From: Mageeibacillus sp.
GTDB lineage: Bacteria > Bacillota > Clostridia > Saccharofermentanales > Saccharofermentanaceae
DNA: 64,000 bases
Assembly: GCA_022484595.1 (NCBI GenBank)
Contig: JAKVLB010000001.1
Coordinates: 248,001 to 312,000, forward strand
Reading direction: 5' to 3'
The notes beneath the pieces were generated by a model. That model searched no databases and was not told the origin of the DNA. It saw nothing but the letters and a program-made list of their open reading frames with translations. Below are positions 3,257-45,551 of this stretch, one piece after another. A program made the translations under genes and the position numbers. The number at the start of each line of letters is the position of its first letter. Position 1 is the first letter of the stretch.

Positions 3257-4429
3257 TTATATCATAATATCAGGTGTTACAAACTTTCCTCTGCAAATTA
3301 CATTCCTGAGCCGTCCGCTGCCGTCGATAACATTTATGTCGGCTCTGCCCCCGGCATCAAGCGTGGGGCACTTAATCCCGAGTCTGTCATACGGTGTCTT
3401 TGTCAGAGCGTCATATACTTCTGAATGCGGTATTCCGCAGCTGACAAGCTCACGGCATTCGCAGGCAAGCGAAGTAACAGAGCCTGCAAGACTGCCGCCT
3501 GGTCCGTAATAGGTTCTTCCGCAGCGGACTTCAACCTCAGTTCCGCCGAGATCGTAAAATCCGTCCGGCATACCGGCGCCGCGCATCGAATCCGACACGA
3601 CTATCACCCTGTCACCTATCAGTCTGCTGATTATTCTGAGCATGGCAGGCACAATGTGGTGACCGTCGCAGATAACTTCCGCGAAGACTCCGGGACTGTC
3701 AAATACCGCACCCAGGATTCCGGGCGCGCGCTTAAGACACGGTGACGTGGCGTTAAGAATATGTGTCACGGACTTCCCGCCTCTTGCAAAGAAATCCATA
3801 GCCGTATCATAATCGCAGTCTGTATGCGCGGCAGAGAGAACATATCTGCCGCTGAACTCTTCCGTAAACTGCATGGCGCCGTCAAGCTCCGGCGCGACAT
3901 CAATTATCTTAAGAAGCCCCGGGAACCTCTTTTCAAGATCTTCTATCAGCGCGGTCCCGTTTTTTGGCAGGATAAGATTACCGGTCTTCTGCACTCCGGA
4001 CATTGAAGGATTGAGGAACGGTCCTTCAAGATGAATGCCTGAGACAGCGGCGTGCGGCTTTATGTCCTTGTCAAGAATTTCTACGGCCCGGCTCACTGCG
4101 TCGAAAACTCTGTATATCCGCTCCTTCTCTATTGTCATTGTGGTGGGAAGAAATGCCGATACTCCGCATTCAGGCAGGCGGCGCGACAGACTGACAATGT
4201 CTTCTGCCGAAGCGTCAGAGCAGTCGTATCCGAATGCCCCGTGAATGTGACTGTCAAAGAATCCGGGGGTCAGATCACATCCCGTGCAGTCCAAATCCTG
4301 AACATCCGAGCAGCTTTCAGGCTTTGCCACTATCATGTTTATATCGCTGTCGAAAAACAGATCATTGCCTTCGCCGTCCGCTTTGAAGTCACGTCCGGAA
4401 ATGCTTCTCGCGTTGCTGAGTCTAATCAT
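3257..4429 (-). CDS. nagA: N-acetylglucosamine-6-phosphate deacetylase NagA
   Basis: Hydrolyses GlcNAc-6-phosphate to glucosamine-6-phosphate and acetate in amino-sugar recycling. It is an amidohydrolase-superfamily protein with the metal HxH motif in FFDSHIHGAFG, the LEGPFLNP loop, histidines in SAAHTDCDYD and THILNAT, CDGHH, and the catalytic aspartate in VVSDSMRGAG. ATG at 4429 is preferred over the GTG 12 bases upstream because an AGGAG site lies 10 bases before the ATG and would abut the GTG. The stop lies 30 bases before the cdaA fusion start, so co-transcription with cdaA-glmM is likely. No nagB is visible here. Confidence 0.93.
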   Translation of the reverse strand: MIRLSNARSISGRDFKADGEGNDLFFDSDINMIVAKPESCSDVQDLDCTGCDLTPGFFDSHIHGAFGYDCSDASAEDIVSLSRRLPECGVSAFLPTTMTIEKERIYRVFDAVSRAVEILDKDIKPHAAVSGIHLEGPFLNPSMSGVQKTGNLILPKNGTALIEDLEKRFPGLLKIIDVAPELDGAMQFTEEFSGRYVLSAAHTDCDYDTAMDFFARGGKSVTHILNATSPCLKRAPGILGAVFDSPGVFAEVICDGHHIVPAMLRIISRLIGDRVIVVSDSMRGAGMPDGFYDLGGTEVEVRCGRTYYGPGGSLAGSVTSLACECRELVSCGIPHSEVYDALTKTPYDRLGIKCPTLDAGGRADINVIDGSGRLRNVICRGKFVTPDIMI

Positions 4430-40930: not shown

Positions 40931-41419
40931 TTATCTCTTCCCGCCGCCATTCTCACTGCTGTTGCCGGCATCATCAGACTGTTTGTCTGCGACATTCTCC
41001 GCTGCACTTCCGGAATCTTTCCAGCCCTTGGCATGCGAACGCAATGCATCAGAGTATGCGTTTATTCTGTGATAATAATTCAACACTCTCAATCGCTGTA
41101 ACACAGCTTCAAGTTCCTTATTACTCTCTTTAGCCTCAGTTATTGTATTAGATTCTGTCAATATCAGATCATTTACCGCACTTGAAAACAATTCGAGCTC
41201 ATTAACATCATTCACCGGAACAATACTCAAACAGAATCCAAACGAATTCAGATAGGATACAAACGTGTCAAGCTTAGGCGCATGTTTCCCGGATTCAATC
41301 CTGGACACCTGCGGCTGAGACACCTCAATTCTATTGGCAATTTCCGTAACAGTCAGCCCGCTTTTCCTGCGCAAACTGGCTCCCTGCCTGATAAGTTCCT
41401 GATAATCAGACTCAACCAT
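40931..41419 (-). CDS. XRE-family HTH protein next to the CRISPR array
   Basis: 162 residues from ATG 41419, which follows GGAGG by 5 bases (an upstream frame adds 24 unsupported residues). The HTH domain is LRRKSGLTVTEIANRIEV followed by SQPQVSRIESGKHAPKL, and the next part, SYLNSFGFCLSIVPV, resembles HigA-type antitoxins. The C-terminal half is charged and low-complexity (ends SENGGGKR). No toxin gene is adjacent. The promoter region holds an imperfect inverted repeat (AATATATC-TTTTTT-GGTATATATT, 41437-41460) that could be an operator. A link to CRISPR control is possible but unproven. Confidence 0.8.
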   Translation of the reverse strand: MVESDYQELIRQGASLRRKSGLTVTEIANRIEVSQPQVSRIESGKHAPKLDTFVSYLNSFGFCLSIVPVNDVNELELFSSAVNDLILTESNTITEAKESNKELEAVLQRLRVLNYYHRINAYSDALRSHAKGWKDSGSAAENVADKQSDDAGNSSENGGGKR

Positions 41420-41520
41420 ATATACCTCCAAAATGAATATATCTTTTTTGGTATATATTATCCTATCGAAAAGAAGATTACCATAATTCAAGTGTATCCC
41501 CGAGTCTCAATCTGTATCAG

Positions 41521-43926
41521 AAATCAAATCAGACTACGCGGGGGACACTCGTTGCCATTATTGATGATAAGACCTTACTTAGGATCACCCCCGCCTACGC
41601 GGGGAACACATATTATTATGTATTTTGATTTTTCCTTTTGTGGGTTCACCCCCGCCTACGCGGGGAACACTAAGGCTCTATCTTGGCCATCAGGTGCGGC
41701 ACAGGATCACCCCCGCCTACGCGGGGAACACCAAAATCGTCCGTTATGCTCGGATGCACTGTATGGATCACCCCCGCACATACGGGGAACACCAGATCTT
41801 CCGACCGCATTTGTTATCTTGGTCAGGATCACCCCCGCACATACGGGGAACACTATCCGCGTCCGCTAACATACGAGCATATCTTGGGATCACCCCCGCA
41901 CATACGGGGAACACAGGGAATTTGTACGTACATTCCCGTTTTCTTGGGATCACCCCCGCACATACGGGGAACACATTGAGTCCACAAGTTTTACTAAAGG
42001 TTATTTGGGATCACCCCCGCACATGCGGGGAACACAGAAAAGCCTGTATCATCTAACTATGATCTGGGGGATCACCCCCGCACATGCGGGGAACACAGTC
42101 CGCGCAGAATCTCTACAGGAACGTTTTTAGGATCACCCCCGCACATGCGGGGAACACTCTAAGACCGGACGCAACGCCTGCTCCTCGTTGGGATCACCCC
42201 CGCACATGCGGGGAACACTCCTGTCAGCCCTACGATGTGCCTCGCCTCCGGGGATCACCCCCGCACATGCGGGGAACACGTACTCCTTTGCGCGTCTCCG
42301 CGCGGGTAAATAGGATCACCCCCGCACATGCGGGGAACACGCGGATGCAGAGCTTGGCGCTTTCGCGCTCATGGGATCACCCCCGCACATGCGGGGAACA
42401 CGTAATAGAACGACTATCTTGAACAAGGTCGTAAGGATCACCCCCGCACATGCGGGGAACACTCTCTTTAGTCTCATCAATCGCGGTCGCCAGTGGGATC
42501 ACCCCCGCACATGCGGGGAACACAAATAAATTTGCCCCCTATACGCAACAATAGTAGGATCACCCCCGCACATGCGGGGAACACTGTTGCGCTCCCCAAG
42601 TTTAAAGAATTGCCATAGGATCACCCCCGCACATGCGGGGAACACGTTTGAAGTTCATTCGCAGCTGTGTTAATTTCTGGATCACCCCCGCACATGCGGG
42701 GAACACCCTTGAAACCCGCGTGTGAGTTGAGCGTACCGGGGATCACCCCCGCACATGCGGGGAACACCGCGGGAGGCTATCAGGTCAAGGGCGACTTTGG
42801 GGATCACCCCCGCACATGCGGGGAACACATTTGATTAGCACACCTCGCTGTGTCAGTTCAAGGATCACCCCCGCACATGCGGGGAACACTACACGCATTA
42901 CAGTAAAACGCAATCCTGTTTAGGATCACCCCCGCACATGCGGGGAACACCTTTACGGGAAGTAGGAGATGCATCGGTGTTAAGGATCACCCCCGCACAT
43001 GCGGGGAACACGGACAGGCTTAGAATTTATCTGCTTGCGGACTAGGATCACCCCCGCACATGCGGGGAACACTCTCTTTAGTCTCATCAATCGCGGTCGC
43101 CAGTGGGATCACCCCCGCACATGCGGGGAACACTGCAAAGGTTAAGTTTGACAACGCAACACGTGAGGATCACCCCCGCACATGCGGGGAACACAGCTGT
43201 AGCGCCGTTTAGGATGTTACAGGGGCAGGATCACCCCCGCACATGCGGGGAACACGGATGCGCTATGAGAAGTCTTATCTTCCCCGCGGGATCACCCCCG
43301 CACATGCGGGGAACACACTATGAACTTGGGAAGCAATCCTTTGCTTCAGGGATCACCCCCGCACATGCGGGGAACACCCGTCACTTTATGCCCAACTTGG
43401 TCTCAAAAAGGGATCACCCCCGCACATGCGGGGAACACAAATTGTCGCCCACGTCCACGACGAGATGATTAGGATCACCCCCGCACATGCGGGGAACACT
43501 CAGCCAGCTTACGCAGAGTCTCTGCAGGTGTAGGATCACCCCCGCACATGCGGGGAACACCCTGACCTGAGTCCATCCTTGCCCTTCGGGTTGGGATCAC
43601 CCCCGCACATGCGGGGAACACTTGTGCGCTCTGCACAAACAATCTCATAATTTGGGATCACCCCCGCACATGCGGGGAACACGCACTTAAAATAACAATT
43701 ATCAGAGTTTTGTTGGAATCACCCCCGCACATGCGGGGAACACTCAGCCAGTTCGCGCAGAATATCTGCCGGGGCAGGATCACCCCCGCACATGCGGGGA
43801 ACACCAATCTCTTTTGACAGGGATTCCTTTTCTTTGCGGATCACCCCCGCACATGCGGGGAACACTATCTTCGGGATGGTATCTTCGGGTATCGCGTGGG
43901 ATCACCCCCGCACATGCGGGGAACAC
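41521..43926 (-). CRISPR. Type I-E CRISPR array, 40 repeats and 39 spacers
   Basis: A 28-base repeat recurs every 61 bases with spacers of 33 bases (one of 32). Read on the minus strand it is GTGTTCCCCGCATGTG followed by CGGGGGTGATCC, a hairpin-forming type I-E repeat. Repeats begin at 41582, 41643, 41704 and so on to 43899; a badly decayed one lies at about 41521-41548. From left to right the stem loop changes in blocks: CCTACG (41582-41731), ACATACG (41765-41974), then ACATGCG to the end. Decay at the left and uniformity at the right place the leader at the right, with transcription on the minus strand. Spacers at 42463-42495 and 43073-43105 are identical. Confidence 0.98.
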
Positions 43927-44010
43927 ACTAAGATTATAGCGCAAATACAGCGTTTCTGTTTTGATTATGTATTTAAATTTATTAATTTCTCATACAATGA
44001 GTATGTAGCA
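43927..44010 (-). promoter_or_regulatory. Probable CRISPR leader overlapping the 3' end of cas2-dnaQ
   Basis: AT-rich sequence next to the leader-proximal repeat, containing on the minus strand TATAATCTTAGT directly before the first repeat. Only 38 bases separate the repeat from the cas2 fusion stop codon, so a leader of normal length must extend into that gene. The boundary is inferred. Confidence 0.5.
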
Positions 44011-44834
44011 TGACAGTCAGCAAGAGCTCTATGACGTTGATCAGCAACTATATCAAAATATTTTAATAAAGTGTCCATTCGATAATTCTCGATATCCTTG
44101 ATGACTGATCTTGCCATTGACAAAGTATCGGTAATAGAGTTACCTGTAATAGCCATTCCATATCTTTGATATGCGTTATTAATAAAGCTCATAGCGAACT
44201 TTGCATTATGAGCAACAACAGGATAAATACCGACGAAATCCCTAATCTTAATTAGCGCCTCTTTCTCAGGGAATCCTCTGTCAATTAAATCAGTATCTGA
44301 AATTCCCGTTAAAGCAACAATCGTCTCAGATAATTTGTTTTCGCAATGAACAAGCATATTCAATGAGTCAGTTATTTTCCCATTTGTTATCTTTATTCCG
44401 CCGAATTCAATAATTCGATCATTAATCCTGTCAAGTCCGGTTGTTTCGATATCAAGAACAATATACTCATCAGGTTCAAAAAACTTCTGTTCAGGTTCAC
44501 TGCGCTTCAGTTTTACTGCTGCACGGACAACTGTTTTGCTCTTCCTTTTACAGACTTCCTTTGGCAGCGGTCTCATAATAAGTTTCAGTCCATCATAATC
44601 AACAGGATTCCATTTGGTGTTCAACGTACGGAATTCAAAGCCCTGTTCATTCTTCGCACTGTAGACCAGAAATGCGCTTCCGCCGTTAGCGTTCTTCTCT
44701 ATTTTCTTCCATAACTCATCCCTAATTCGAGCTGTAACACGACCTACATAAACGCCTGTATCTATCTCAAGCAGCCACTTGGTTAAATCACCGCGTAATG
44801 ATGCTGAACATTTGGACAATGAGATTACTATCAT
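43965..44834 (-). CDS. cas2: Cas2 fused to a DnaQ-like DEDDh exonuclease, motif II mutated
   Basis: 289 residues. Residues 1-90 are type I-E Cas2: MIVISLSKCSASLRGDL, TGVYVGRVTARIRDELWKKI, EQGFEFRTLNTKWNPVDYDG. After a basic linker (91-118) comes a DnaQ-type exonuclease (122-289) with motif I YIVLDIETTGLD (D128, E130) and motif III HRALADCHA (H268, D273). Motif II, normally HNAxFD, reads VAHNAKFAMSF, with alanine (codon GCT) where the catalytic aspartate should be (214). Such fusions are known in Streptococcus thermophilus type I-E, where the exonuclease trims prespacers. This copy probably cannot cut. It directly follows the cas1 fragment. Confidence 0.93.
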   Translation of the reverse strand: MIVISLSKCSASLRGDLTKWLLEIDTGVYVGRVTARIRDELWKKIEKNANGGSAFLVYSAKNEQGFEFRTLNTKWNPVDYDGLKLIMRPLPKEVCKRKSKTVVRAAVKLKRSEPEQKFFEPDEYIVLDIETTGLDRINDRIIEFGGIKITNGKITDSLNMLVHCENKLSETIVALTGISDTDLIDRGFPEKEALIKIRDFVGIYPVVAHNAKFAMSFINNAYQRYGMAITGNSITDTLSMARSVIKDIENYRMDTLLKYFDIVADQRHRALADCHATYSLYEKLINLNT

Positions 44835-45250
44835 TGGATATTCTCATCATCATCATCGGGAAGATATAATTTACCTGAATCGATTTCACCATCTTTATCG
44901 TCCCATAATTTAAGTATCGATACATCAGGATTCTCAAAATCACTTTCTCCGTCTTCTGACAACAAAAAGCAGATATCACTGACCATACGTTGAAGTATAT
45001 CTCCGGAAGCGAAAAGATCTCGCATGCAATGTCTCACATCATTCTCAACATTTGATGATCCTCTGGCAACCACTTCAAATGAGATAGGTATTGATGTCTC
45101 AGCCTTATATAAATCTGCTACATCATATACAAAGGATCGTTCATGTCCTACATGAACAAATCCAAGACCGGCAGACAGCCCCAGAGCGACAATTACACTG
45201 TGCGCTAATCCATATAGGCAGATATTAGCTGATGACAATGCTATAAATGC
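44831..45250 (-). pseudogene. cas1: cas1 C-terminal fragment (type I-E integrase), 5' part deleted
   Basis: About 139 residues of Cas1 remain: AFIALSSANICLYGLAHS, LGFVHVGHERSFVYDVADLYK and a helical end that finishes DDDDENIQ. The catalytic His and Asp of the second half are kept, but the N-terminal half with the catalytic Glu is gone. The frame runs upstream without a natural start into the cas3 remnant; a TTG at 45238 is the only in-frame start-like codon. The end overlaps cas2 by 4 bases (ATGA), the original operon coupling. It cannot be a working integrase subunit. Confidence 0.9.
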
Positions 45251-45321
45251 GTGTAAAGCGGAAGCCAGTCATTATCATTCTTCTTAGCCCAAAGTAATTT
45301 TGTATTGTCAGATAATCCCAT
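45241..45321 (-). pseudogene. cas3: cas3 5' remnant (first 26 codons)
   Basis: From ATG 45321, with GGAG 8 bases upstream, the frame reads MGLSDNTKLLWAKK then NDNDWLPLYTHL and stops at TAG. The pattern WAKK...WLPL..HL is the conserved start of type I-E Cas3 helicase-nucleases. It runs out exactly where cas1 sequence begins, in a different frame. The shared bases GCATTTA (45250-45244) fit both genes (cas3 T-H-L and cas1 A-F-I), marking the deletion junction. Everything from cas3 through the first half of cas1 is therefore missing. Confidence 0.85.
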
Positions 45322-45350
45322 AAATCAGCTCCGAGAATGTATTTGAGTAG

Positions 45351-45379
45351 ATTATATCAAACTTTAATTGCATTAATCG
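45351..45379 (-). promoter_or_regulatory. Putative promoter of the former cas operon
   Basis: On the minus strand an extended -10, TGATATAAT (45359-45351), lies about 30 bases before the cas3 remnant ATG; the -35 region (CGATTA at 45379-45374) is weak. It would now drive the cas3-cas1 remnant and cas2-dnaQ, and possibly read into the array. Confidence 0.5.
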
Positions 45380-45505
45380 GACTGAACCCTGACTTTTCGA
45401 TATCTGATAAAGTTTTTACTGACAATGTCGCGGCTTATGCGGTGAGGTCTTTCCGCCCAAAATCCACAAACTGATCCGCAATGCATCCTCTTTCCTGACT
45501 TCAAG

Positions 45506-45514
45506 TGCTATAAT
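45506..45514 (+). promoter_or_regulatory. ychF: Extended -10 promoter of ychF
   Basis: TGCTATAAT at 45506-45514, an extended -10 about 38 bases before the ychF ATG. No good -35 is seen. Confidence 0.5.
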
Positions 45515-45551
45515 GCAATAGCTTAAAAAATGTAATCAAGAGGTATTTAAA

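Follow-up and report, generated by a model that had tools for sequence, protein, structure and literature searches.

A type I-E CRISPR-Cas locus of Mageeibacillus sp. reduced, very probably by one almost blunt internal deletion, to a cas3 start, a cas1 remnant, cas2-dnaQ and a long array

Introduction

Orphan CRISPR arrays left behind by the loss of cas genes are a known kind of locus. The nearest intact operon that we found to the locus described here is a type I-E operon (L154) in a genome of another genus of the same family (G099), where a complete set of genes ends in the same cas2-dnaQ fusion and is followed by its own array. The window that we analyzed, a stretch of 64,000 nucleotides from a Mageeibacillus sp. 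genome, resembles L154 in its Cas2-DnaQ protein (52-53% identical), in the C terminus of Cas1 (65%) and in its array, which lies after cas2-dnaQ, has a 61-base period and uses a 28-base repeat differing at 2 positions. Unlike L154, the window is without cas3 beyond codon 26, without the Cascade genes and without the N-terminal part of cas1, and its DnaQ domain has lost the motif II Asp. Here we describe what is left of the system, what is missing from it and how the loss probably came about.

Results

The frame that opens with the ATG at 45321 on the minus strand reads MGLSDNTKLLWAKKNDNDWLPLYTHL and ends at an in-frame TAG (45243-45241). The first-pass annotation had taken 45321-45244 to be the start of a type I-E cas3. 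For comparison we used 80 named I-E loci, the best 80 of 113 in a scan with the cas1 remnant as query. When the 26-residue peptide was searched against these best 80 loci by tblastn, the top matches were cas3 gene starts, with E values of 3e-7 (L044 and L093) and 6e-7 (L077). The best score, 40.9 bits, was reached by none of 300 shuffled peptides, the highest of which scored 30.8. The peptide also matched the start of L154 Cas3, a protein with both HD and helicase domains, by blastp (E 3e-5 in a search of 8 proteins). A pattern search for cas3 starts returned only the window's own locus and L077 in its narrow form and 14 of the 80 loci in a looser one. The tblastn, shuffle and blastp results bear the assignment out. 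The annotation had also given this cas3 start a ribosome site and a promoter. The GGAG site is there, and a TATAAT (45356-45351, read as TGATATAAT) lies upstream of the ATG, but a -35/-10 consensus scan listed no promoter at 45351..45359, and a promoter ahead of the remnant is plausible only. The features of the locus are collected in Table 1.

Table 1. Positions of the remnant and its surroundings in the window
Feature	Coordinates	Strand	Basis
Putative promoter element of the former cas3, extended -10-like (TGATATAAT)	45351..45359	-	Read from sequence; putative function
GGAG ribosome-binding site, 7 nt upstream of the cas3 ATG	45329..45332	-	Sequence
cas3 remnant, codons 1-26 of type I-E cas3	45244..45321	-	tblastn to cas3 starts, shuffles, blastp to L154 Cas3
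Seam	45241..45244	-	Columns of 81 cas1 relatives and 33 cas3 starts
cas1 remnant, last 136 codons of cas1e with the stop, in another frame than the cas3 piece	44831..45241	-	TIGR03638, L154 Cas1
cas2-dnaQ fusion, open over 289 codons	43965..44834	-	PF09707 E 2.7e-32, PF00929 E 2.6e-30
Short leader from cas2-dnaQ to the first repeat, 38 bases, TATAAT at 43938-43933	43927..43964	-	Sequence; putative function
CRISPR array, 39 repeats and 38 spacers, leader end at 43926	41582..43926	-	Repeat reading
XRE-family HTH gene past the trailer end of the array	40931..41491	-	Domain search
Native ychF promoter/leader, right limit of the inserted CRISPR-cas block	45503..45551	+	blastn

Beyond the seam, the minus strand was said to continue, in another frame, with the second half of cas1, and this too held up. 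The stretch 45241-44831 matches positions 175-268 of the 269 positions of the TIGR03638 profile (E 7e-34), and no other part of the profile is matched at the locus. Because the protein is partial, its score of 117 bits falls below the whole-protein cut-off of 216 bits; it is also below the cut-off of the Pfam Cas1 model. With L154 Cas1 as query (65% identical to the remnant), residues 182-311 matched the window and the match began exactly at 45241. The stop codon of the remnant overlaps the start of cas2-dnaQ in the sequence ATGA (44834-44831), and the Cas2e part of the fusion was recognized by TIGR01873 as well (E 1.9e-17, above cut-off).

We then compared all eight cas proteins of L154 with the window at E 0.01. 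Only Cas1 and Cas2-DnaQ matched, whereas all eight matched a control locus (L052); the five Cascade proteins (Cas8e, Cse2, Cas7e, Cas5e and Cas6e) thus had matches in L052 and none in the window. The 26-codon cas3 piece is too short for this search and was tested separately, as described above; it is all that the locus retains of the Cas3 helicase-nuclease. The source genome is assembled in 12 contigs and is 99.13% complete. No Cas7e was found in any of 85 genomes of the genus, the source included, with a model that was positive in 2 of 14 controls and negative in E. coli, and that scores L154 Cas7e at 2.9e-111. A second Cas1e was likewise not found in the source genome (model positive in 9 of 14 controls; full L154 Cas1 scores 1.1e-20). 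L154 Cas3 as query had no match in the source genome; that search included no positive control, but cas3 in the named loci had been matched with the same protein in a slightly longer form. For Cas8e, Cse2, Cas5e and Cas6e, absence refers to the 64-kb window. Together with the 39-repeat array, the window and genome searches agree with the earlier claim that cas3, Cascade and half of cas1 were removed while cas2-dnaQ and a long array were left.

Perhaps the missing half of cas1 lies elsewhere in the genome? The genome has one Cas1 match, a fragment of type II on contig C6, and we rejected it as the missing half. This N-terminal piece (L002 17739-18089, minus strand; PADLOC Cas1_II, E 3.5e-30) has two stops in read-through; judged by eye, phage-like genes lie close by, where the contig ends. 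A search of the source genome for Cas9 gave no match, with a model that reached its cut-off in 0 of 14 controls. On its sequence, we read the C6 fragment as a second CRISPR fossil in this genome.

Intact operons are the rule among the comparison loci: Cas3, Cas8e, Cas7e, Cas5e, Cas6e and Cas1 were all matched in 69 of the 80 named loci (best 80 of 113). Eight of the 11 incomplete loci (L029, L030, L035, L037, L047, L069, L084 and L098) have a contig end upstream. The other three, L082, L075 and L089, have no contig end as the reason. They resemble the window in that effector genes are wholly or partly absent while cas1-cas2 is kept, and they differ from it in having a full-length cas1. In L082 (uncultured Clostridia MAG Lapin-011), a piece of cas8e corresponding to residues 132-200 of the L095 protein stands 46 bases before the end part of cas7e (residues 305-360), at 3517-3946; cas5e-cas6e-cas1-cas2 follow, and an inverted cas3 lies at 10.9-13.6 kb. 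As its sequence reads, this is another internal loss of effector genes. L075 (6521-7849) and L089 (9440-11290) hold type I-E cas1-cas2 with no effector match in the 6.5 and 9.4 kb upstream, respectively, and we read them as lone adaptation modules.

Within the family, Cas2e was found in 2 of 115 genomes, the source genome and G099. The operon of G099 has 7,759 bases of cas3, Cascade and cas1 between the points homologous to the two ends of the window's seam. None of the window's neighbor-gene markers matches L154, so the G099 system occupies a different site. No closer intact parent was found in the 85 genomes of the genus or, besides G099, in the 115 of the family; among 188 genomes of the order, five more carry Cas2-DnaQ relatives, at 34-37% identity. 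In the genus, 31 genomes besides the source matched the Cas2-DnaQ query, either in the exonuclease part or weakly, and the Cas2e model found none of these. Relatives with the same short arrangement, to which the first-pass annotation had pointed as evidence against its reading, did not turn up: the source genome is the only one of the genus with a Cas2e match, and the family adds just G099, whose operon is intact.

The site itself was compared in 16 of the 84 other genomes of the genus. TopA, DprA, YifB and YchF are neighbors in 14 of these; in the remaining two, only YchF matched in the stretch taken. Ten of the 14 have 126-250 bases between yifB and ychF; in three the gap is about 1.1 kb and includes another gene, and in one it is 2.4 kb. 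None of the 14 gaps matched Cas1 or Cas2-DnaQ (E 1e-4), and no repeat-like palindrome was seen in the four long ones. In the window, the sequence shared with relatives restarts at 45503 (45503-45547 is 85% identical to L136 by blastn, E 2e-9, with weaker matches to L137-L140). Since relatives have no cas match between yifB and ychF, the CRISPR-cas block would have been gained in this lineage, and it is probably an insertion that, of the genomes compared, only this one carries. As for an intact operon at the same locus, for which the first-pass annotation had proposed to look, none of the 14 relatives has a Cas1 or Cas2-DnaQ match there, and a complete operon exists in G099 elsewhere. The deletion would be later than the insertion, because the remnant starts with the start of cas3 and ends with an array. 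None of the other loci compared has a homologue (E 1e-3) of the XRE-family gene beyond the array.

The array consists of 28-base repeats (GTGTTCCCCGCATGTGCGGGGGTGATCC) separated by 37 spacers of 33 nucleotides and one of 32, and so has the 28-29-base palindromic repeats and spacers of about 33 bases that mark type I-E. On the leader side, 31 of 32 repeats are identical to the consensus and the other differs from it at one position; the seven at the far end carry variants. These trailer-end repeats, 33-39 (41582-41974), form two variant blocks, four repeats with one change and three with three or four, suggesting that the repeat changed stepwise as the array grew.

Several spacers can be read as short peptides. 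Spacer 8 (43471-43439) reads IVAHVHDEMI, which we take to be close to motif C of family A DNA polymerases. Six different spacer sequences of the 38 were searched against viral contigs. Exact 20-22-base parts of spacers 1, 2, 3, 7 and 14 found no match; a part of spacer 8 found one, L161, which agrees at 27 of 33 bases and, read by eye, lies where a DNA polymerase-like frame codes for VHDEM. With 27 of 33 bases only, L161 was rejected as the source itself; it fits an origin in a phage polymerase gene, from which spacer 8 probably derives. Spacers 3 (43776-43744) and 7 (43532-43500), which are unlike at 8 of their 33 positions, both translate as (A/T)PA(D/E)(I/T)LR(E/K)LA, and spacer 30 (42129-42097) reads PVEILRG; by these readings, related phages may have supplied all three from one gene. 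Spacer 24 has the same sequence as spacer 14. When 50,697 phage records were searched with the array, 12 of them matched at E <= 0.1, with 60-80% identity in the best places and 11 of them in several pieces, a pattern such as would be expected of repeat matches. In the source genome (blastn, E <= 1), the only match outside the array was a 25-base stretch with 88% identity (E 0.6). No self-target was seen there, and we set aside self-targeting as a cause of the loss.

In the intact systems treated in a published account of Cas2-DnaQ, the fusion processes pre-spacers ahead of integration (PMC13034035). An active DEDDh exonuclease has four catalytic acids and a His. The DnaQ domain of the window has D and E of motif I and H and D of motif III, whereas the Asp of motif II is Ala (HNAKFA). 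Among 56 relatives, motif I has D in 50 and E in 51, motif III has H in 49 and D in 51, and the motif II position is D in 52 and E in 1. The change removes one metal-binding Asp and should weaken exonuclease activity. The motif II Asp is also replaced, by H, T or V, in L024, L080 and L051, all with complete I-E operons. The loss may thus be older than the deletion, and it does not prove decay; a DnaQ domain may be allowed to be inactive.

We read the seam codon by codon against the relatives. On the cas1 side, we took the three codons ahead of A-L-S in the 80 named loci (best 80 of 113) and L154, shifting L098 by one codon because its match began one residue earlier. The first is V or I and the second N (AAT or AAC) in all 81, and the third is Q or K in 79, with one R and one M. 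The window has GCA-TTT-ATA, or A-F-I, at these codons. The third codon ends in A in 23 of the 81, and the A at 45242 could be the third base of CAA, AAA or CGA. On the cas3 side, 33 of 81 loci fitted the search pattern and were tabulated. H is followed by L or M in all 33, partly by construction, since the pattern demanded H and then L, M or I. Codon 26 of the window, TTA (45246-45244), agrees with the L/M column; at codon 27, T is the first base in three of the 33 (L154 included), and none begins with TA. The cas3 homology thus ends at 45244 (or 45243) and the cas1 homology begins at 45242 or 45241, so that the parental overlap compatible with the conserved codons is about 0-1 base. The simplest reading is that cas3 up to 45244/45243 was joined to cas1 from 45242/45241, with an overlap of 0-1 base and 0-2 added bases; the T at 45243 would be either from cas3 or added.

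These columns bear on how the ends were joined. The first-pass annotation had placed the switch in GCATTTA (45250-45244), held that these bases fit the coding of both genes and proposed a microhomology-mediated deletion. GCATTTA does adjoin the seam, and ACG-CAT-TTA (T-H-L) fits the cas3 columns, again partly by construction of the pattern. The cas1 half of the claim is not borne out: in that frame GCATTTA gives A-F-(I), against [VI]-N-[QK] in the relatives, all 81 of which have V or I followed by an Asn codon (AAT/AAC), so these bases are cas3 and not cas1 sequence. Pairing through GCATTTA would need a parental cas1 deviating at at least 3 bases across the two codons, and we regard it as very improbable. 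Judged by the relatives' codons, the two parental ends would have shared at most about 1 base rather than several, and the microhomology proposal is not supported. A near-blunt join with 0-1 shared base points instead to illegitimate Ku-independent joining or replication slippage as the likely route; Ku had no match in the source genome, with a model positive in 1 of 14 controls.

Neither remnant protein is unusually eroded. The cas1 remnant breaks 1 of 35 near-invariant columns, a count equaled or exceeded in 29 of 80 sequences (the remnant among them); Cas2-DnaQ breaks 1 of 23, equaled or exceeded in 18 of 57. A length filter kept 80 of 82 Cas1 sequences (the window included), and 57 of 80 Cas2 sequences were long enough for DnaQ. 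With no excess of broken columns, erosion was discarded as a clock, being uninformative beyond recency. The loss looks recent, in that the leader-end repeats are uniform, the frames are open and the conserved residues are not unusually eroded. The deletion had been called cleanly dated; these are signs of recency and nothing in them gives a date.

Discussion

We are confident, from the sequence comparisons above, that a type I-E operon was gained between yifB and ychF and was then cut by one internal, almost blunt deletion from cas3 codon 26 to the C-terminal part of cas1. A complete operon (cas3-cas8e-cse2-cas7e-cas5e-cas6e-cas1-cas2-dnaQ and array) would have been acquired at this site. A single internal deletion, about 7.8 kb long if measured by the nearest intact operon, would then have joined cas3 codon 26 to the sequence for the last 136 residues of Cas1, sharing 0-1 base at the join and leaving at most 1-2 extra bases. 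The size and the exact seam are read from relatives no closer than 65% (Cas1 C terminus), as the parent allele was not found. A single deletion is the best explanation, and several nested deletions would look alike. Of the one microhomology-mediated deletion first proposed, the single deletion is supported, with homology on both sides of the seam, and the microhomology is not.

Could the remnant still serve some function? Ribosomes that load at the cas3 site and pass through the 26-codon frame and then the cas1 remnant might keep cas2-dnaQ expressed, and cas2-dnaQ or the array RNA might serve in a non-CRISPR role. The frames are open, the cas1 remnant and cas2-dnaQ overlap in ATGA, -10-like elements precede both cas3 and the array, and conserved residues are not lost in excess. 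A recent deletion accounts for the same facts, however, the Ala in DnaQ motif II should weaken the exonuclease and no partner gene was identified, all of which makes such retention very unlikely. We give slightly less credence still to its stronger form, in which cas2-dnaQ and the array would be a new minimal unit under selection, the cas3 promoter having been rewired onto cas2-dnaQ via the 26-codon leader frame and an exonuclease-weakened Cas2-DnaQ or the array RNA having a job outside immunity. That the join is an assembly or library chimera and the operon intact in the cell is hardly credible: the junction was seen in one genome only, in its assembled sequence, but Cas7e, Cas3 and a second Cas1e were found on none of the 12 contigs of this nearly complete assembly, a k-mer assembler would be unlikely to invent a join sharing 0-1 base, and the seam, at about base 293,240 of contig C1, is inside a long contig.

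A single near-blunt deletion would have ended both activities of the system. Interference would have been lost with Cas3 and Cascade, which the locus no longer has, and adaptation because Cas1 is without its N-terminal part; in E. coli Cas1, that part holds one catalytic Glu. The array may still be transcribed, with nothing to read it as far as searched: with Cas1 and Cascade missing, it could be neither extended nor read by this system.

The window is an unusually legible case of CRISPR-Cas death, in which one near-blunt deletion would have taken interference and adaptation together and left the spacer record almost pristine. The seam is a concrete marker for typing strains, and it lets the recency of effector loss and a possible role of selection in it (autoimmunity, cost or gene uptake) be tested. 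A gutted locus alone alters no concept: the lesion is clear and its kind is known. The description of the locus as an orphan array beside a deletion is sound, with 39 repeats and no effector found as far as searched. Like other orphan arrays that arose by cas gene loss, it is long and, within the searches made, has no effector in its genome; unlike them, it has a lesion readable to within 2-3 bases and still carries cas2-dnaQ at its leader end.
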